NCBI RefSeq assembly: GCF_014193425.1
Contig: NZ_JACHZG010000001.1
Coordinates: forward strand, 3,286,001-3,350,000
Reading direction: 5' to 3'
From: Microlunatus antarcticus
GTDB lineage: Bacteria > Actinomycetota > Actinomycetes > Propionibacteriales > Propionibacteriaceae
Length of the DNA: 64,000 bases
How positions within the stretch are numbered: the stretch's first letter is position 1; each line of letters starts with the position of its first letter. The notes beneath the pieces were generated by a model, which was not told the DNA's origin, did not search any database, and saw only the letters and a list, made by a program, of their open reading frames with translations. The translations under genes and the position numbers were made by a program. Shown here piece after piece: positions 18,000-64,000 of this stretch.

Positions 18000-21092
<3,093 letters not shown>

Positions 21093-30218: not shown

Positions 30219-30586
30219 TAAGCAAAGCCTTTCGATGGGCACCCCAGGGGTGGCGTCGGGCGAAAGTCTGTCACAGCCCGACCCCCCGGAGGCCCGGTCG
30301 AGAGGTGTGCGGCGCCGTCGACGTATACACCCCGCCCGCTGCCCCGCGTCAGCAGGGCCGTCTCCGGCGGGCCACGCGTGACCGAACTCTCAAATTTACC
30401 GGTGTCGGCCAGCCGTGGTTAAATCCTGCCGAGAGTGGTGACCGGCACGAGCACGCCGGACTCGTCGACGAGACGCCACGTCGGTCCCGCCGGGAGGCAT
30501 GGGCGACCCGCCCCGGCGGACGTCGCTCGTCCCGACCGGCCGCGCCGTGCCCCGCAAGACCGTCGCTCGAGAGGCTGACCCACAAG
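30219..30586. promoter_or_regulatory. 368-bp divergent promoter region of the polysaccharide locus
   Basis: Lies between the BY-kinase (leftward) and a glycosyltransferase (rightward). It contains a GTATAC palindrome at 30323-30328 (context GACGTATACACC), an AT-rich patch around 30390-30425 (CAAATTTACCGG and GGTTAAATCC) that is the best promoter candidate, and no convincing gene. The last 160 bp before the ATG at 30587 could encode an N-terminal extension of the glycosyltransferase, but codon choice does not support it. Confidence 0.4.
30323..30328. promoter_or_regulatory. GTATAC palindrome resembling the GntR sites at 56-58 kb
   Basis: The context ACGTATACACC is shared with the site at 58526 in front of the GntR gene (ACGTATACACC). 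It could be bound by the same FadR-type regulator, or it could be chance; a six-base palindrome alone is weak evidence. Confidence 0.25.
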
Positions 30587-55853: not shown

Positions 55854-56513
55854 GTGACCAGCACCCGACCCCCCGGCGACGGCGGGGCGGACCGCGTCGT
55901 CCTGGTCGTAGCCGAGCGGCTCGCCGGCTGGGTGACGCGCTTCGAGGCCCGCCACGGCCCGGTCACGACGTCGGGGACGGCCGCCGAGCTCACGCTGACC
56001 GCGGCGGACGGGGCGGTCGCGGTCGTCGAGGTCCCGTTCCCGCCGCTGCCGTCGGCCGCGGACCTGCCGTCGGTCGTCGAGCACGCCCTCGTCGACCGCA
56101 CGGTCGGGGCCGTCCTGGTCCGCCGGGGCGGGTACGCGGTCGGCTGGTTCGAGGGCTCCCGGCTGATCGGGTCGAAGGTCGGCAGCACCTACGTCCAGGG
56201 GACCACCAAGGCCGGCGGCTGGTCGCAGCAGCGCTACGCCCGACGCCGGGCCAACCAGACGCAGCAGGCGTACGCCGAGGCCGCCGACGTCGCGGCGACC
56301 CTGCTGCGCCCCCACCTGGGCGAGCTGACGGCCGTGGTCGGCGGCGGCGACCGGGCGGGTGTGCTCGCCGTCCTGGCCGACCCCCGGCTCGCCGGGCTCG
56401 GCCCGCTGCTCCAGCCGCGGGTGCTCCCGACCGTGGACCCCCGGCTGCGGGTGCTGCAGGCGTTCGGCGACCAGCTCCGCGAGGTCCGGATCACCCTCAG
56501 CGCGGACGCCTGA
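55854..56513 (+). CDS. acVLRF1-family release factor / peptidyl-tRNA hydrolase
   Basis: A 219-residue protein of the actinobacterial Vms1-like release factor 1 family, which has an eRF1-type fold and is thought to free nascent chains from stalled ribosomes. The diagnostic catalytic loop KAGGWSQQRYARRRANQ is complete, after GSKVGSTYVQGTT. The first 85 residues hold the N-terminal domain (VVLVVAERLAGWVTRFEARHG). GTG start with GGAGG eleven bases upstream. Chance neighbour of the sugar operon; it has its own ribosome site and a terminator in front. Confidence 0.88.
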   Translation: MTSTRPPGDGGADRVVLVVAERLAGWVTRFEARHGPVTTSGTAAELTLTAADGAVAVVEVPFPPLPSAADLPSVVEHALVDRTVGAVLVRRGGYAVGWFEGSRLIGSKVGSTYVQGTTKAGGWSQQRYARRRANQTQQAYAEAADVAATLLRPHLGELTAVVGGGDRAGVLAVLADPRLAGLGPLLQPRVLPTVDPRLRVLQAFGDQLREVRITLSADA

Positions 56514-56555
56514 CCCCCTGGTCCAGCACCGCAGGCCCGGTCCCGGTGAACTCTC

Positions 56556-56561
56556 GTATAC
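56556..56561. promoter_or_regulatory. GTATAC site 1 (OCD promoter region)
   Basis: Context CTCGTATACATC, 188 bp before the ornithine cyclodeaminase-like gene. One of four GTATAC palindromes around the GntR gene and its neighbours. Confidence 0.5.
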
Positions 56562-56664
56562 ATCTTCCCGAGCGGGACGGGGACCTGTCGTCGGTCGGCC
56601 TGCTCGGGTGTCGACCGCTTTTCGTCCTGCGGTGACCGTAGGTAACCCCACCGTCACGAAAGTT

Positions 56665-56670
56665 GTATAC
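56665..56670. promoter_or_regulatory. GTATAC site 2 (OCD promoter region)
   Basis: Context AGTTGTATACACAG, 78 bp before the OCD start codon. TATACA inside it could double as a -10 hexamer. FadR-type GntR operators are short palindromes of this kind. Confidence 0.6.
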
Positions 56671-56748
56671 ACAGAGAGCGCACGTACGCCCCTGTCCGTG
56701 TGTCCCGACCGTCGTGGAGACCCCCTTGTCGACCCCCCTCCCCACCCG

Positions 56749-57774
56749 ATGACCCTGTTCCTGAGCCGGGAGGACCTCACCGGTCTCCTGAGCACCGCCG
56801 AGGTCGTCCGCGCCGTCGAGGAGATCCATCTCGACCTGGGTCTCGGCACCATGACCCAGGGCCCGCCCGCGCTGCTGGCCAGCGGGGTCGGCGACGCCGT
56901 GCTCCTGCCGATGGCCGCGCTGTCCGACCGGCTCGGCCTCGCCGTGGTCAAGCTGATGTGCGACATCCCGGAGAACCGGGAGCGCGGGCTCCCCCCGCAG
57001 CGCTCGACGCTGCTGGTCAGCTCGACGGTCACGGGCGAGTGCGTCGCCGTCCTCGACGGCGCGGTCCTCACCCGGCAGCGCACCGCCGCCGCGTCCGCCG
57101 TGGCCACCGCCCACCTGGCCCGGGCGGACAGCCGGACGCTCGGCCTGGTGGGCGCCGGCGCGCTCGCCGTCGAGCACGTCCGGGCCCTCACCGAGGTCCG
57201 CGCCTTCGAGCGCGTCGTCGTCTGGACCCGGTCGGAGCAGACCCTCGTCGACTTCGCGCTGGCGTGCGACGAGCTCGGCCTCGACCTCCCGCTCACCCGG
57301 GCGACGAGCGCTTACGACGTCGTGGCCCAGTCCGACGTCGTCTGCACCCTGACCCCGTCGCGCACCCCGGTCGTCGAGGGACGCTGGTTCCGCGCGGGTC
57401 AGCACATCAACGCGGTGGGGGCGCCGCCGCGCCCGACCCACCGTGAGATCGACGCCGAGGGGATCGCCCGGTCCGAGCTCTTCGTCGACAGCGCGAGCAC
57501 GTCGATGGCCAAGTCGGGCGAGATCCTCCTCGCCATCGCCGAGGGCGCCCTCCCCCCGCACCCCGGGCTCCGGGAGCTCGGGGCGGTGGTGGCCGGCCGC
57601 GACCCCGGGCGGGTCGACCCGGACGCGATCACCCTGTTCAACTCGGTGGGGATCGGCGCGCAGGACCTGGCCGTCGCGGCGCTGGCGATCGACCGCGCCC
57701 GGCTCACCGGCGTCGGCACCGACCTGCCCATGACCGCGCCGCAGCTCCAGGACGCCGGCCAGCAGCCCGGCTGA
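56749..57774 (+). CDS. ornithine cyclodeaminase / mu-crystallin family protein
   Basis: A 341-residue NAD(P)-binding protein. LGLVGAGALAVEHVRALTEV is the Rossmann loop; the substrate lysine lies in AVVKLMCDIPENRERGLPPQRSTL; SDVVCTLTPSRTPVVEG and HINAVGAPPRPTHREID are standard OCD segments. The family includes ornithine cyclodeaminase, alanine dehydrogenase, ketimine reductases and opine or ectoine enzymes. Beside a peptide-type transporter with a shared operator, it probably acts on an imported amino or imino acid. The ATG at 56749 lacks a clear ribosome site. Convergent with gntR. Confidence 0.85.
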   Translation: MTLFLSREDLTGLLSTAEVVRAVEEIHLDLGLGTMTQGPPALLASGVGDAVLLPMAALSDRLGLAVVKLMCDIPENRERGLPPQRSTLLVSSTVTGECVAVLDGAVLTRQRTAAASAVATAHLARADSRTLGLVGAGALAVEHVRALTEVRAFERVVVWTRSEQTLVDFALACDELGLDLPLTRATSAYDVVAQSDVVCTLTPSRTPVVEGRWFRAGQHINAVGAPPRPTHREIDAEGIARSELFVDSASTSMAKSGEILLAIAEGALPPHPGLRELGAVVAGRDPGRVDPDAITLFNSVGIGAQDLAVAALAIDRARLTGVGTDLPMTAPQLQDAGQQPG

Positions 57775-57819
57775 CCGGCGCGGAGGTCGGCCGGGCGGGG
57801 CGGGCCGGGCTGAGCCCGC

Positions 57820-58509
57820 TCAGGCGACGGCGTCCCCGGCGGCGCGGGCACCGGAGGTCCAGAGGCCGCTCAGGGCCTCCTGGGTGGCGTCTCTACCGGA
57901 CTCGACGTGGGCGTACATGAGCGCCTCGGTGAGCCGGACGTTGCCGGCCCGGACCGCGTCCAGCAGCGCCTGGTGCTCCTCGCTCTGCCCCCGCAGGTCC
58001 CGGCCCGACGTCAGGTAGAACATCCAGGCCATCCGCCCGGCGAGCAGCCGCATGAGGCCCTCGAACAGGGGGTTCCTCGAGGCGGCCGCGAACGCGAGGT
58101 GGAGCTCGGCGTTGGACAGCGCGAGCTCGATCGGGTGGTCCTCGGCGAGGTGCCGCTCGGACCGGCTCATGGCGCTGGTGAGCGCGGACATCACGGCCGG
58201 GTCAGGGGTCTCGCGCATCCGCCGCGCTGCCGCGGCCGCGGCCGCCACCTCGACCCCGAGCCGGGCGTCGAACAGGTCGTCGATCAGCTTCGGCGTCCAG
58301 GTCGTCACCACGCTGCGGCGGCGGGGTGCGGTCTCCACGAAGCCCTCGAGCTGCAGCAGGGGCAGCACCTCGCGCACCGGGACGCGCGACACCGACAGGT
58401 CCTGCGCCAGCCGGGTCTCGCTCAGCACCTGGCCCTGCGCGTACTCGCCGAGCATGATCTTGCGGCGCAGCAGCTGGTGGACCTGGAGGGGCTTGGGCTC
58501 GTCGACCAC
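57820..58509 (-). CDS. FadR-type GntR transcriptional regulator
   Basis: A 229-residue regulator: N-terminal winged HTH (LSETRLAQDLSVSRVPVREVLPLLQLEGFVET, residues 28-59) and an all-helical FCD ligand domain (DARLGVEVAAAAAAARRM, NAELHLAFAAASRNPLFEGLMRL, HQALLDAVRAGN) with the Asp/His metal-binding residues of the family. GTG start at 58509. GTATAC sites lie 17 bp and 93 bp upstream of its start, the latter at the NMT1-like gene, so it probably controls itself, the transporter operon and the OCD gene. Confidence 0.9.
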   Translation of the reverse strand: MVDEPKPLQVHQLLRRKIMLGEYAQGQVLSETRLAQDLSVSRVPVREVLPLLQLEGFVETAPRRRSVVTTWTPKLIDDLFDARLGVEVAAAAAAARRMRETPDPAVMSALTSAMSRSERHLAEDHPIELALSNAELHLAFAAASRNPLFEGLMRLLAGRMAWMFYLTSGRDLRGQSEEHQALLDAVRAGNVRLTEALMYAHVESGRDATQEALSGLWTSGARAAGDAVA

Positions 58510-58525
58510 GGCCCCATGCTAGGAC

Positions 58526-58531
58526 GTATAC
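58526..58531. promoter_or_regulatory. GTATAC site 3 (gntR promoter)
   Basis: Context AGGACGTATACACCGCC, 17 bp upstream of the gntR GTG. Placement suits autoregulation. Confidence 0.6.
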
Positions 58532-58601
58532 ACCGCCAGCGGGGTGAGTTGGCTCTTACCGATGTGTAATGCCGGTGGAACGCGGCCGAAACACCTGTTT
58601 T

Positions 58602-58607
58602 GTATAC
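58602..58607 (+). promoter_or_regulatory. GTATAC site 4: operator overlapping a leaderless -10 box
   Basis: Context TTTTGTATACATTTCTC. The hexamer TATACA (58603-58608) lies six bases before the ATG at 58615, so it can be both -10 box and operator, and the message would be leaderless. No -35 consensus is visible. Confidence 0.6.
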
Positions 58608-58614
58608 ATTTCTC

Positions 58615-59523
58615 ATGCTCTCCCTGTCGGTCTCCGCCACGTCGCACGGTCAGAACTACCTGCCCCTGTACTACGCCGAGGCCGCCGGGCTCTTCGCCGC
58701 CCGCGGCCTGGAGGTCCGCGTGTGGGACCGCGACCCCTGGACCGAGGTCCTCGACGACCTGGCGTCCGGCGAGGCCGACGTCGTGCTCGGCGGGCTGTGG
58801 GTGCCGGCGATGTACGCCGGGCGCGGGCGCGAGCTGGTGACCGTCGGCCAGATCAACGCCCGGTTCTCCAAGACCGTGATCACCCGCGAGCCGGTCGCCG
58901 ACTTCGACTGGAGCTGGATCACCGGCAGGACGGTCCTCGTCCCCGGGGCCGGCGGCACCGCCCCGTACGAGTTCACCGCCGGCCTGATCCGCGCCGCGGG
59001 TGTCGACCCGGCGAGCGCCCGGTTCGTCCGCGACCTGTCCGGCCCGATGCTCACCGAGCTGTTCCTCGGCGGGCACGGCGACGCGATGGTCGTCGACGCC
59101 TTCAGCGCGGCGAAGCTGAGCACGGCCGGACTGGTCCACCAGACCTACCGCCTCGCCGGACCGGGCGGCGTGATGCCCAACAGCGTCTTCTACACCGACC
59201 CGGAGCGGCTGGACCCGCTGCTCGCGCCGCTGACCGCCTTCCTGGCCGCGCTGCAGGAGGCGATGGACGCGATCAACGCCGGCGCCGCCACCGCCGGGCT
59301 GCTGGCCGAGCACTGGCCGGGAGCGACCGAGGCGGCGCGGGCCGCCGCCACCGCCGAGCTGGTCGAGAACGGGACCTGGGAGTCCGTGGTCGTCGACGAG
59401 GCCGCGTGCAACCGGTGGATGGACATCCTCCGGGAGGGCGGACTGGTCTCGACCGCCGCCGACTACTCCTCGCTCGTCGACACCCGGGCGGTCGACACCG
59501 CTCTCGCCGAGCCGGTCCGATGA
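58615..59523 (+). CDS. NMT1/THI5-like protein without signal peptide
   Basis: A 302-residue type II periplasmic-binding fold: YLPLYYAEAAGLFAARGLEVRVW, LASGEADVVLGGLWVPAMY, VLVPGAGGTAPYEFTAGLIRAAG, LSGPMLTELFLGGHGDAMVVDAF. There is no signal sequence or lipobox: the protein begins MLSLSVSATSHGQNYLPL, straight into the first strand of the fold. The ATG sits on the likely transcript start, so an upstream signal is not simply missed. It is either a cytosolic enzyme with this fold (as THI5, DszB or the MqnA/MqnD enzymes are) or a ligand sensor. First gene of the dpp-like operon; stop overlaps the next ATG. Confidence 0.78.
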   Translation: MLSLSVSATSHGQNYLPLYYAEAAGLFAARGLEVRVWDRDPWTEVLDDLASGEADVVLGGLWVPAMYAGRGRELVTVGQINARFSKTVITREPVADFDWSWITGRTVLVPGAGGTAPYEFTAGLIRAAGVDPASARFVRDLSGPMLTELFLGGHGDAMVVDAFSAAKLSTAGLVHQTYRLAGPGGVMPNSVFYTDPERLDPLLAPLTAFLAALQEAMDAINAGAATAGLLAEHWPGATEAARAAATAELVENGTWESVVVDEAACNRWMDILREGGLVSTAADYSSLVDTRAVDTALAEPVR

Positions 59524-60620
59524 CGACCACCTCGGCCCTCGAGGTCACGCTCGCGCCGGACACGGCGCCCGCGGTCCGGGGCCGCGGCCGCACGCGGGTC
59601 CTGTCGATCCTGCGCTCGGTCGGTGGCAGCCTCGGCGTGATCCTCGCGGTCGTCACGCTGACGTTCCTCGTGACCCACGTCGTCGCGCCGGACCCCACGA
59701 ACCTGTTCCTGGGCTCGGCCGGCTTCGCCAGCGCCGCGGACGAGGCCGTGGCGCGCGAGCAGGTCCGCGCGGACCTCGGTCTGGACAAGCCGCTGCCCGA
59801 GCAGTACGCCCTCTTCCTCGCCCAGCTGGCCCAGGGCGACCTCGGGAAGTCCTTCCAGACCGGACGCCCGGTGCTGACCGACCTGACGGACCGCTTCGCC
59901 GCCACGGCCGAGCTCGCCTCGTACGCCCTCCTCTTCGGGGTCGTCGTGGGCGTCGTCATGGGGGTGTTCTCGGCGGCCCGCCCCGGGCGGGCGTTCGACC
60001 GGGTCTCGCGCACGGTCTCGATCGCCTGGATCGCGACCCCCCAGTTCTGGGTCGGCCTGATGCTCGTGTGGCTCTTCACCGTCCAGTTCCAGGTGCTGCC
60101 CGGACCGATCGGGCGACTACCGATCGGCGTACGACCACCACCGGACATCACCGGTTTCTACGTCCTCGACGGGGTGCTCACGGGCCGGTTCGACACCGCC
60201 GGGAAGGCCGCCGCGCAGCTGGTGCTCCCGGTCGTCACCCTGGCGATCGGTCTCGCGGCCCCGATCGCCAAGGTCGTCCGGACGGCGATGGTGGAGTCGC
60301 TGGGCTCGGACTACATCCGGACGGCGCGCGCCCTGGGCTTCGGCACGACGCGCATCCGCTTCGTCTACGCGCTCAAGAACGGGCTGCTCCCGGTCGTCAC
60401 CATCCTGGCCGGCATCGTCGCCTTCACCCTCTGCGGCTCGATCCTCGTCGAGGGGATCTTCGGCTGGCCCGGGGTCGGCAACTACTCCCTGCAGGCCATC
60501 CGGACCTCCGACTTCCCGGTCATCCAGGCCTTCGTCCTCTACGCCTCGGCGATCTACGTCCTCATCTACGAGGTCCTGAACATCGTCTACGGCTTCGTCG
60601 ACCCGAGGTCCCGCGCATGA
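59520..60620 (+). CDS. Dpp/Opp-type ABC transporter permease (DppB-like)
   Basis: A 366-residue membrane protein with six helices. ADLGLDKPLPEQYALFLAQLAQGDLGKSF is the first-loop signature of DppB proteins, and SLGSDYIRTARALGFGTTRIRFVYALKNGLLPVVT the EAA loop that contacts the ATPases; NYSLQAIRTSDFPVIQAFVLYAS lies near the end. ATGA overlap with the NMT1-like gene. It imports a di/oligopeptide or other peptide-like compound together with the next four genes. Confidence 0.93.
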   Translation: MTTTSALEVTLAPDTAPAVRGRGRTRVLSILRSVGGSLGVILAVVTLTFLVTHVVAPDPTNLFLGSAGFASAADEAVAREQVRADLGLDKPLPEQYALFLAQLAQGDLGKSFQTGRPVLTDLTDRFAATAELASYALLFGVVVGVVMGVFSAARPGRAFDRVSRTVSIAWIATPQFWVGLMLVWLFTVQFQVLPGPIGRLPIGVRPPPDITGFYVLDGVLTGRFDTAGKAAAQLVLPVVTLAIGLAAPIAKVVRTAMVESLGSDYIRTARALGFGTTRIRFVYALKNGLLPVVTILAGIVAFTLCGSILVEGIFGWPGVGNYSLQAIRTSDFPVIQAFVLYASAIYVLIYEVLNIVYGFVDPRSRA

Positions 60621-61546
60621 GCGCCGCGACGCAGGCGAAGACCTCCCCGACGGACGCCACCCTGTCGGACGCCGCCCAGCCGGACGCCGCTCAGCCGGAA
60701 GCCACCGGGGCGGGCTCCCGGATCCGCGAGCTCTGGGCCGGTCAGGACGCCGTCAAGGTCGGCGCCGTCATCATCGTCGTGCTCTGCGCCGCCGCCCTGG
60801 TGTCGCTGGTGTGGACGCCGTACCCGCCGCTCGCCAAGGCGGTCGGCCCCTTCAACGCCCCGCCGAGCGCCGACCACTGGTTCGGGACCGACGCCACCGG
60901 CTCGGACGTGTTCTCCCGGGCGCTGGCCGCCACCCGGACCGACCTGGGCGTCACCGCCCTCGTGGTCAGCATCTCCCTGGTCGTCGGCACCCTCTGGGGC
61001 GGGATCAGCGGGTTCGTCGGCGGCTGGTTCGACGCCGTGTCGATGCGGCTGCTGCAGGTCATGAACGCCTTCCCCGCCCTGCTGCTCGCCATGCTGGTCA
61101 TCACCGCGCTGGGCGGCAGCCTGCGCGACCTCATCCTCGTGGTGGTCCTGATCCCGCTGCCCGACTACATGCGCCTGGCCCGGGCCGAGGTGCTGACCAA
61201 GAAGAACTGGCAGTTCGCGGAGGCCGCGGCCATGATCGGGCGCCGGCCCGCCGGGGTGCTGTTCCGGCACCTGCTGCCCAACTCCACCCGCCCGCTGATC
61301 GCGTACGCCGGCATCAACGCCTCCTGGGTCATCGCGACCATCGGGTCGCTGGGCTACCTCGGTCTCGGGATCGAGCCCGGCTCCGCCGAGTGGGGCTCGA
61401 TGATCGCCGGCGGCCAGTCCGGGGTCGTCGACGGGCAGTGGTGGACCTCGTTCTTCCCCGGGGTCGGGATCTTCCTCGTCGCCGCCGCCTTCCACCTGCT
61501 CGGTGACGGCCTCACCGACCACGACCTCGTCCGACGCGGGAGCTGA
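60617..61546 (+). CDS. Dpp/Opp-type ABC transporter permease (DppC-like)
   Basis: A 309-residue partner permease. After a 40-residue Ala/Pro/Asp-rich N-terminal tail come the DppC marks HWFGTDATGSDVFSRALAATRTDLGV and the EAA loop DYMRLARAEVLTKKNWQFAEAAAMIGRRPAGVLFRHLLPNS, then EPGSAEWGSMIAGGQ. Overlaps its upstream neighbour by ATGA. Confidence 0.93.
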   Translation: MSAATQAKTSPTDATLSDAAQPDAAQPEATGAGSRIRELWAGQDAVKVGAVIIVVLCAAALVSLVWTPYPPLAKAVGPFNAPPSADHWFGTDATGSDVFSRALAATRTDLGVTALVVSISLVVGTLWGGISGFVGGWFDAVSMRLLQVMNAFPALLLAMLVITALGGSLRDLILVVVLIPLPDYMRLARAEVLTKKNWQFAEAAAMIGRRPAGVLFRHLLPNSTRPLIAYAGINASWVIATIGSLGYLGLGIEPGSAEWGSMIAGGQSGVVDGQWWTSFFPGVGIFLVAAAFHLLGDGLTDHDLVRRGS

Positions 61547-61547
61547 G

Positions 61548-62414
61548 ATGGAGCAGACCGGTTCCACGACGCTGGAGGTGGTGCCCGAGCTCGACCACGA
61601 GCCGGACCCCACCGACGTGATCGTCGCCTTCGAGAACTACTCCGGCGGGTTCCGGGGGCGGCACGGCGGCCGGGTCACCCCGATCCTCAAGGGCGTCGAC
61701 GTGGCCTTCCGCCGCGGCGCCCTCACCGCGGTGGTGGGTGAGACCGGCAGCGGGAAGACGATGCTCGCCCTGAGCATCGTCGGGCTGACCCCCGCCACGT
61801 TCGAGCGCACGGGCGGCTCGATCCACCTGAACGGGACCGACCTCGGCGGGTACGACGAGGCCGCCTTCCGCGGTGTCCGCGGCCGCACGGTGGCCATGGT
61901 CTTCCAGGACTCGCGCAGCGCGCTCAACCCGGTCTTCACCGTCGGCCGACAGCTCGTGGACGTCGTGCGGCTGCACCAGGGTCTCGGCAAGGCGGCGGCC
62001 CGGACGCGGGCGGTCGAGCTGCTCGAGCAGATGCGGGTCCCCGAGCCGGAGCGGCGCCTGCGGCAGTACCCGCACGAGCTGTCCGGCGGCACCGCCCAGC
62101 GCGTCCAGCTCGCCATCGCCCTGGCCTGCGAGCCGGAGCTGCTCCTGCTGGACGAGCCGACGACCGGCCTCGACCTGACCGTCCAGGCCGAGGTCCTGGA
62201 GCTCATCGTCGAGATGATCAAGGGCGGCCGGCTGTCCGCGCTGCTGATCACCCACGACATGGGGGTCGTGGCCCAGACCTGCGACGACGTCGTCGTGCTC
62301 CGGCACGGCGAGATCTGCGAGTCCGGACGGACCTCCTCGGTGCTCACGAACCCCACCCACCCCTACACCGCCGAGCTGGTCGCCGCCAGCCAGACGCTCG
62401 GAGGCACCCGATGA
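61548..62414 (+). CDS. Dpp/Opp-type ABC transporter ATPase (DppD-like)
   Basis: A 288-residue ATPase: Walker A GETGSGKTM, Q-loop VFQDSRSALNPVF, signature ELSGGTAQRVQLAIAL (Thr-Ala in place of the commoner Met-Arg) and Walker [18 protein letters not shown], then the NPTHPYTAELVAAS tail. It lacks the long C-terminal Cys-rich oligopeptide domain that its partner has. Start ATG one base after the DppC-like stop. Confidence 0.92.
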   Translation: MEQTGSTTLEVVPELDHEPDPTDVIVAFENYSGGFRGRHGGRVTPILKGVDVAFRRGALTAVVGETGSGKTMLALSIVGLTPATFERTGGSIHLNGTDLGGYDEAAFRGVRGRTVAMVFQDSRSALNPVFTVGRQLVDVVRLHQGLGKAAARTRAVELLEQMRVPEPERRLRQYPHELSGGTAQRVQLAIALACEPELLLLDEPTTGLDLTVQAEVLELIVEMIKGGRLSALLITHDMGVVAQTCDDVVVLRHGEICESGRTSSVLTNPTHPYTAELVAASQTLGGTR

Positions 62415-63406
62415 CCCGCTCAGCCCTGGTGGTCAACGGGATGGTCAAGCGGTTCGCCGTGCGCGACCGCGGCGTACGGGCCCAGCTCACCGCGGTCGAC
62501 GGTGTCGACCTCACGCTGGCTCCCGGGGAGACGGTCGCCGTCGTCGGGGAGTCCGGCTCCGGCAAGTCCACCCTCGCGCGGTGCATCGCGCGCCTCGTCG
62601 AGCCGGACGCGGGCCGCGTGATGCTGGACGAGGTGGACCTCACGGGCCTGCGCCGCCGGTCGCTGTGGCAGGCGTACCAGCGGCTGCAGATGGTGTTCCA
62701 GGACCCGATGACGTCGCTGAACCCGCAGATGACGGTCGGGGAGACCATCGACGAGCCGCTGCGGCTGCACAGCCGCCGGTCGCGCCAGGAACGTCGCGCG
62801 CGGGTCGAGGAGCTCCTCGCCGACGTCCGGCTCGACGCCGCGCTGCTCGGGCGCTACCCCCGCCAGCTCAGCGGTGGCCAGCGCCAGCGGGTCGCGATCG
62901 CCCGCGCGCTGGCGGTGGACCCGACCTACCTGCTGCTCGACGAGCCCACCTCGGCCCTCGACGTGTCCGTGCGCGGCCAGGTGCTCGACCTGCTCTCGCG
63001 GCTCCGCGAAGAACGCGGCCTGGGCTACCTGCTCATCTCCCACGACCTGTCCTCGGTCCGGCGCATGGCCGACCGCGTCCTCGTCATGTACCTCGGCTCG
63101 GTCGTCGAGACCGGCCGGACCGAGGACGTCTTCACCAACCCGCAGCACCCGTACACCCGGGCCCTGCTCTCCGCGGCGATGTCGACCCAGTACGGCACGA
63201 CCACCGAGCGGATCCGGCTCCGGGGCGAGATCCCCAGCCCGGTCCACCTCCCGGCCGGCTGCCGCCTCGCGTCCCGCTGCCCCGAGGTCCAGCCGTCGTG
63301 CCACACCGCCCGGCCGCCGCTGCTCACCGTCTCCGGGGGGCCGCACCTCGTGGCCTGCCCCGTGGTGCTGTCCGGCCACCCGGAGGTGCTCAGCAGCATC
63401 GCCTGA
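62411..63406 (+). CDS. Dpp/Opp-type ABC transporter ATPase (DppF-like)
   Basis: A 331-residue ATPase with Walker A GESGSGKST, Q-loop VFQDPMTSLNPQM, signature QLSGGQRQRVAIARAL, Walker B LLLDEPTSALDVSV, and the full C-terminal oligopeptide domain NPQHPYTRALLSA ... IPSPVHLPAGCRLASRCPEVQPSC, whose cysteines can bind an iron-sulfur cluster in some relatives. Coupled to the DppD-like gene by an ATGA overlap. Confidence 0.94.
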   Translation: MTRSALVVNGMVKRFAVRDRGVRAQLTAVDGVDLTLAPGETVAVVGESGSGKSTLARCIARLVEPDAGRVMLDEVDLTGLRRRSLWQAYQRLQMVFQDPMTSLNPQMTVGETIDEPLRLHSRRSRQERRARVEELLADVRLDAALLGRYPRQLSGGQRQRVAIARALAVDPTYLLLDEPTSALDVSVRGQVLDLLSRLREERGLGYLLISHDLSSVRRMADRVLVMYLGSVVETGRTEDVFTNPQHPYTRALLSAAMSTQYGTTTERIRLRGEIPSPVHLPAGCRLASRCPEVQPSCHTARPPLLTVSGGPHLVACPVVLSGHPEVLSSIA

Positions 63407-63486: not shown

Positions 63487-64000
63487 ATGCCCGGAAGCAC
63501 CCAGACCCGACGCGCCGTCGCCGCGCTGGTCGGCCTCACCACCTTCACCGTGCTCACCGGCTGCGGGTCGGCCGGCTCGCAGAGCGACACCGAGGCCCCC
63601 GCCGCGACCACGGCCATCACCACGGCCTGGCCCGCCGACGTCACCTCGCTCGACCCGGCCAACCTCTCGACCGGCCAGGACCGCGCGCTGACCCGGAACA
63701 TCTACCAGCCGCTGCTGTCGCCGAAGTTCGCGGAGCAGGCCGACGGATCCCTCAAGTTCCAGGGGGCCGAGGTGGTCCCGCTGCTCGCCGAGTCCTGGAC
63801 GACCAAGGACTCCTCGATCACGTTCAAGCTGCGCCAGGGGGTCAAGTTCCACGGCACCGACGACGAGGTCACCGCCTCGGACGTCAAGTTCAGCCTGTCG
63901 CGCATCTGGAAGACCCCGGGCGTCGGTGACTTCAAGGCCAACGGCCTGCAGTCCCCCGACCAGATCAAGGTCGTCGACCCGTCCACGGTGACCATCGACT
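63487..64000 (+). CDS. extracellular solute-binding lipoprotein, family 5 (cut by window end)
   Basis: The first 171 residues of a DppA/OppA-like binding lipoprotein: lipobox LTGC near residue 26, then the type II binding fold with ADVTSLDPANLSTGQDRALTRNIYQPLL and LAESWTTKDSSITFKLRQGVKFHGTDDEVTASDVKFSLSRIW, the family 5 signature. Family members are about 500-550 residues, so most of the protein is outside the window. ATG with CAGGAA upstream, 80 bp after the ATPase gene. It would be the extracytoplasmic receptor for the transporter encoded before it. Confidence 0.93.
   Translation, partial: MPGSTQTRRAVAALVGLTTFTVLTGCGSAGSQSDTEAPAATTAITTAWPADVTSLDPANLSTGQDRALTRNIYQPLLSPKFAEQADGSLKFQGAEVVPLLAESWTTKDSSITFKLRQGVKFHGTDDEVTASDVKFSLSRIWKTPGVGDFKANGLQSPDQIKVVDPSTVTID

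Follow-up and report, generated by a model that had tools for sequence, protein, structure and literature searches.

Four copies of the palindrome GTATAC precede an OCD/mu-crystallin family gene, a gntR gene and a transporter operon headed by an NMT1/THI5-like gene in a stretch of 64,000 nucleotides of Microlunatus antarcticus DNA (the window). It is highly probable, in our view, that they serve as operators for an FCD-type GntR protein, whose gene stands among them; this protein would repress the OCD gene, its own gene and the NMT1-opp operon until a ligand releases it. The original prediction had placed GTATAC at 56556, 56665, 58526 and 58602, always in a promoter gap (two before the OCD gene, one before gntR and one at the NMT1-like gene). 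All four were found exactly there, and with the start codons adopted here (OCD, ATG 56749; gntR on the minus strand, GTG 58509; NMT1-like, ATG 58615) all four are intergenic. A program-made list of open reading frames (ORFs) begins the NMT1-like frame at TTG 58600, which would place the 58602 site just inside the frame; we preferred ATG 58615. The two sites before the OCD gene (sites 1 and 2) lie ~190 and ~80 bp from its start codon, and the other two (sites 3 and 4) are 76 bp apart.

GTATAC is rare in this DNA. The window contains five matches, the fifth being at 30323, and in 100 shuffled versions of the window the mean was 0.66 copies and the maximum was 2. The genome (4,369,610 bases) carries 15 copies; only 11 lie outside the four locus sites, and the equal frequency in nearby coding DNA that had been named as a refutation of the original prediction was not seen. 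A span of 2,052 bases, the size of the one that holds the four sites, would by the background rate carry 0.005 copies; the Poisson probability of at least four is 3e-11, or ~2e-7 once all spans of that size in the genome are allowed for. The longer palindrome TGTATACA occurs twice in the genome, both times at the locus (56664 and 58601), and a genome scan with TTGTATACA allowing up to one mismatch gave 10 forward and 8 reverse matches, of which both perfect ones are at this locus. An explanation of the sites as restriction sites or repeats was dropped because they stand singly in promoter gaps.

The palindrome recurs beside homologues of the regulator. Searches of 245 genomes of the order (three with a match, E 1e-30) and 394 genomes of the class (11 with a match, E 1e-29), both counts including the genome under study, gave a set of 18 other loci, in which the GntR protein is 37–53% identical to ours and ~1.5 kb of flank was taken on each side. 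GTATAC is present at 14 of the 18 loci. Their 64,722 bases hold 17 sites, where first-order composition predicts 1.05 (ratio 16). This makes it the most enriched of the 64 palindromic hexamers; the runner-up has a ratio of 4.5 that comes from one copy. When the loci were collapsed at 60% identity, seven of 10 groups carried GTATAC, and when only the first locus of each group was counted, six of 10 did so (binomial P ~7e-6). As a control, we examined the 14 FCD regulators of the same genome; only one of the 13 other loci carries GTATAC in the fetched flanks, so FCD regulators in this genome do not as a rule have the palindrome nearby.

The bases that flank the core are also constrained. Across 24 sites (our four, the 17 homologue sites, two in locus L051 and one in L068), G or T precedes the core in 45 of 48 half-sites, which gives the consensus K-GTATAC-M, and as sequences the sites conform to the palindromic-operator patterns NyGTNxACNy and TKGT-ACMA. 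None of the other 11 genomic copies has G or T before the core on both halves when the flanks are read. At the locus, 56665 and 58602 fit KGTATACM on both sides and form 8-base palindromes; 56556 and 58526 fit on one side only, like many background copies, and their unbroken symmetry does not reach beyond the six core bases. We regard the former pair as strong operator candidates and the latter as weaker claims. Overall, the GTATAC sites are very probably the regulator's binding sites: rarity and recurrence beside homologues favor the proposal that they are local GntR operators, and it has to be qualified in that full flanks are present at two of the four sites.

The palindrome had also been described as being of FadR type, which holds for the flanks and not for the spacing. 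The K and M flanks fit the boxes TKGT/ACMA of the FadR subfamily, in which, as here, double sites occur in divergons with the regulator gene (Suvorova et al., 2015, PMC4494728). Most members of that subfamily, however, have 3 nt between GT and AC, whereas our sites have 2 nt, like those of Atu1419, which is described as a VanR-group protein; the two groups differ in that the effector domain of FadR-group FCD proteins begins with an extra helix (PMC7797058).

The regulator carries a GntR winged helix-turn-helix domain at its N terminus (48.5 bits, cut-off 27) and an FCD domain at its C terminus (70.2 bits, cut-off 24.3). Atu1419 of Agrobacterium fabrum is an FCD GntR repressor that regulates hydroxycinnamate degradation, has methylene-tetrahydrofolate as its effector, and has been crystallized on ATGTATACAT (PDB 6Z74, 6ZA0, 6ZA3, 6ZA7, 6ZAB; PMC7797058). 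Arg45 of this protein recognizes a guanine, and binding was lost when that base and its partner were changed; the Atu1419 palindromes overlap −10 boxes, and a tetramer was observed to loop the DNA between two sites separated by 190 bp (PMC7797058). The two systems share the combination of GntR and FCD domains, a palindrome with a TGTATACA core and a pair of sites in a divergent region that includes the regulator's own gene. In a 13-row alignment of GntR homologues (12 distinct proteins, two rows being the same protein), E31, S41, R42 and R46 are all invariant and align with E34, S44, R45 and R49 of Atu1419, and thus include the guanine-reading arginine. H137, H179 and H201 are invariant as well and would form a three-histidine metal site: H179 and H201 align, in a second and weak segment of the alignment (5.7 bits), with H192 and H214, which are two of the three metal histidines of Atu1419, and an N-x3-H stretch (N133, H137) looks by reading like the third metal histidine of the Atu1419 type. 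An AlphaFold model made from the single sequence was too poor to use (mean pLDDT 51, mostly below 50 in the C-terminal domain). HypR of Streptomyces coelicolor is an actinobacterial GntR-like repressor of an amino-acid-derivative pathway and binds over its own −10 region, but its motif, CTNTGC(A/C)ATGTCAC, is less symmetric and its substrate is hydroxyproline (PMC6608401).

The gene content of other genomes joins the parts of the putative regulon. In the genome that we term G758 (GntR 51% identical), a same-strand run reads cupin-oppB-oppC-oppD-oppF-SBP-AtzD/TrzD-type amidohydrolase-allantoicase-gntR-OCD (SBP, solute-binding protein), with two GTATAC sites ~140 and ~55 bp before its first gene. 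This run has seven of our eight genes (oppB, oppC, oppD, oppF, SBP, gntR and OCD, with 52%, 48%, 51%, 56%, 38%, 51% and 42% identity, respectively) and no counterpart of the NMT1-like gene; the G758 SBP matches PF00496, and among the additional genes the allantoicase passes TIGR02961 and the ring-opening amidohydrolase passes TIGR02714. Relatives of the regulator were found at E 1e-48 in two of 35 genomes of the G758 family, both already in our set. The suggestion that OCD, gntR, the NMT1-like gene and the transporter make up one response is thus supported by G758 for OCD, gntR and opp, whereas the NMT1-like gene is assigned to the regulon from where it lies in the genome under study. In G813 (GntR 53%), gntR is divergent from an SBP-opp run and two GTATAC sites lie 74 bp apart, against 76 bp at our locus, the second within the longest reading of the SBP frame; the G813 opp proteins are only ~33–44% identical to ours. 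The sole TGTATACA in the 5.7 Mb of G636 (GntR 38–40%) is flanked by an SBP gene on one side and an M24-gntR-dehydrogenase run on the other, and a second GTATAC precedes the called start of the run by 16 bp (M24 and dehydrogenase were named by reading, M24 with weak NCBIfam matches). The one plasmid record that matches the regulator at E 1e-20, from Arthrobacter sp. StoSoilB13, has a single site, TTGTATACCAA, which separates a permease gene from an amidohydrolase-gntR pair (names by reading). KGTATACM and this defined homologue group constitute a testable regulator-operator pair that can be used to annotate the regulator in other genomes.

From the observed positions, rarity, recurrence, flank consensus and conserved contact and histidine residues, we infer the following course of binding, repression, cooperativity, and metal and ligand use. 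A GntR dimer would contact both halves of KGTATACM. The strong sites, at 56664–56671 before OCD and at 58601–58608 in the likely −10 region of NMT1-opp, would give repression, and the weaker sites, at distances of 109 and 76 bp, would add cooperativity and, at gntR, autoregulation. A ligand of carboxylate type, either the imported compound itself or a product of it, may then bind the FCD pocket at a bound metal; the effectors of the FadR subfamily include carboxylic acids (PMC4494728). Ligand binding would free the DNA, so that OCD and the NMT1-oppBCDF-SBP operon are switched on together. The genes from NMT1-like through oppF are likely to form one operon because each stop codon overlaps or nearly adjoins the next start codon. 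As just 6 bases separate site 4 from the ATG and no Shine-Dalgarno-like stretch was seen there, the simplest reading is that the NMT1-like transcript is leaderless and that the operator lies over its −10 element; on that reading, repression with release by a pathway ligand is most likely.

Could the regulator activate NMT1-opp, OCD or both when ligand is present? FCD regulators can do so, as illustrated by CitO, which binds citrate through a metal and activates citrate genes (PMC4746285), and the distances of sites 1 and 2 from the OCD start codon, together with the failure to find a consensus promoter, speak for the same behavior here. Site 4, however, is too near the NMT1-like ATG for classical activation of that gene, and Atu1419 and HypR, which bind over −10 regions, are both repressors (PMC7797058, PMC6608401), so we regard activation as unlikely. 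Much less credible still is the idea that GTATAC is bound by another regulator, or is a plain −10 element, and lies near gntR by coincidence. TATACA does resemble a −10 hexamer and site 4 is positioned like one, but a general −10 element would be common, and GTATAC has only its 15 genomic copies; moreover, its recurrence tracks the GntR homologue through differing gene contexts, and the flank constraint agrees with the GntR consensus. We also doubt that only the two TGTATACA sites are operators and that 56556 and 58526 are chance copies. The flanks of these two resemble those of other genomic copies, but the background rate makes two further GTATAC within 2 kb very unlikely, and G813, G758 and G636 likewise carry site pairs.

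Several observations weigh against repression by this regulator through GTATAC. Sites 1 and 3 have the flanks C|A, which also occur in six of the 11 background copies as written, or in seven if one is read on the other strand. Four of the 18 homologue loci (L022, L035, L036 and L043) lack GTATAC in the fetched flanks; L035 has two copies further upstream, before its gene run, and L036 has none across 19 kb. Of the 17 homologue sites, eight lie within called ORFs; these ORFs take the longest start and occupy 85% of the loci. A consensus scan of 56400–58800 gave no sigma-70-like promoter and no terminator, and the overlap of site 4 with a −10 element is putative. Atu1419 differs in having T46, which contacts a base, and R31, which contacts phosphate, where our protein has V43 and V28; its overall similarity to our protein is weak, and it is not the best PDB match (phmmer E 4.7e-6, as against 1e-7 for the solved proteins 7xp0 and 9isw); and its sites are 190 bp apart and bound by a looping tetramer in a hydroxycinnamate pathway. 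With the V43/V28 substitutions and a different gene content, the regulator does not fit an orthologue of Atu1419, which would have the same base-contact residues and regulated pathway. Some opp relatives, furthermore, accompany other GntR genes: in two Rhodococcus plasmid records (oppB 53%), the opp operon has a divergent GntR gene and a promoter without GTATAC, and these stretches (20.9 kb each) carry a single copy, at 20469, inside a coding sequence. Relatives of the NMT1-like gene in G134, G117 and L020 also lie near other GntR genes and lack GTATAC, which is absent throughout the NMT1-OCD stretches of G134 and G117 (19.9 kb each). As regulation, the locus would be an ordinary local FCD-GntR switch, and a well-supported one.

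Relatives of the NMT1-like protein are rare, being found in three of 146 related genomes (E 1e-20) and one of 396 genomes of the phylum (E 1e-40), with the genome under study included in both counts, and in one named contig, which suggests a recently gained island. No signal peptide was seen on reading the sequence, and NMT1/THI5-like proteins encoded at L018 7625–8506 and L019 8431–9315 also read as signal-less. In G134 (by domain search) and G117 (by reading of translations), the gene lies beside genes for OCD, a major facilitator superfamily (MFS) transporter, malate synthase and a racemase, and no ATP-binding cassette (ABC) transporter was noticed among the ORFs listed for these stretches. 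Because a signal-less NMT1-like protein adjoins opp here but OCD, MFS transporter, malate synthase and racemase genes there, its contexts argue that it acts as an enzyme or a sensor and not as the binding protein of a transporter. In L020, from a Solirubrobacterales metagenome-assembled genome, the start of an NMT1-opp operon is divergent from a different FCD gntR, which is itself followed by a hydantoinase/carbamoylase-family amidase gene; the layout matches ours, but TGGnCnGACCA palindromes are found at 1484–1494 and 1688–1698, before both divergent genes, and therefore NMT1-opp also occurs with another GntR operator. A PDB profile search with the NMT1-like protein gave no match up to E 0.1, and its AlphaFold model, from two sequences, was too poor to use (pLDDT 38).

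The transporter would otherwise carry the label peptide-type, and the G758 run provides a lead to its substrate by tying the OCD enzyme and the opp-type transporter to allantoicase and ring-opening amidohydrolase; the pathway is perhaps one for a ureide or cyclic amide. Those two G758 genes, the L020 amidase and the NMT1-OCD pairs of G134 and G117 with no ABC transporter noticed led us to a bolder reading, possible but doubtful, in which an undescribed route of ureide or cyclic amide uptake and breakdown would use the NMT1-like protein as a cytoplasmic enzyme or sensor and the GntR protein would loop paired operators as Atu1419 does. Among the open-licence papers searched, none joined OCD, allantoicase and GntR, and none joined NMT1, OCD, ABC transporter and catabolism. 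Near the oppB relatives of the Rhodococcus plasmids (L069 and L070, 6402–20318), genes are annotated as amidohydrolase, flavin reductase, LLM oxidoreductase, acetamidase/formamidase and amidase, which points once more to amides or ureides as substrates.

Table 1. Genes and candidate operators of the locus (window coordinates)
Feature	Position	Strand	Remarks
GTATAC site 1 (CGTATACA)	56556..56561	n/a	Candidate distal OCD operator, 109 bp from site 2; weaker flanks
Site 2, TGTATACA (GTATAC at 56665)	56664..56671	n/a	Strong operator candidate, ~80 bp 5' of OCD start codon
OCD/mu-crystallin family enzyme, 341 aa	56749..57774	+	PF02423, E 7.8e-60
gntR, GntR winged helix-turn-helix + FCD regulator, 229 aa, GTG start	57820..58509	-	PF00392 and PF07729 above cut-off
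GTATAC site 3 (CGTATACA on + strand)	58526..58531	n/a	Candidate operator, ~20 bp 5' of gntR start codon; weaker flanks
Site 4, TGTATACA (GTATAC at 58602)	58601..58608	n/a	Strong operator candidate, end 6 bp 5' of NMT1-like ATG
NMT1/THI5-like protein, 302 aa, first gene of transporter operon	58615..59523	+	PF09084, E 2.4e-8
oppB-type permease	59520..60620	+	PF00528, PF19300; 52% identity to G758 homologue
oppC-type permease	60617..61546	+	PF00528; 48% to G758
oppD-type ATPase	61548..62414	+	PF00005; 51% to G758
oppF-type ATPase	62411..63406	+	PF00005, PF08352; 56% to G758
Opp/Nik-type solute-binding protein, lipoprotein by reading	63487..64000, runs past window end (L013 488-2185)	+	Nik/Opp SBP models, all matches below cut-offs

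The OCD protein reached no NCBIfam model cut-off, and an Rfam search of 56400–58800 gave no match. Just upstream of OCD lies a gene for an acVLRF1-family peptidyl-tRNA hydrolase (55854–56513); site 1 starts 43 bp past its stop. By reading, a possible 12-codon frame (GTG ... TGA) at 56714–56752 overlaps the OCD ATG at its end (ATGA).

Among the other genomic copies of GTATAC, two have reverse-complement flanks in common, and these look like 23S rRNA. Another (L003 1514; C1:786513 of the same genome) lies ~300 bp upstream of the FCD domain of a second FCD regulator (C1:785842–786204, minus strand), in GTATACAGA-N8-TCTGTAGAC. A further copy (L005 3721; C1:2050720) stands between genes that read as amidase-like and TetR-like, within the inverted repeat CATAAG...CTTATG, which is perhaps an operator of the TetR-like regulator.

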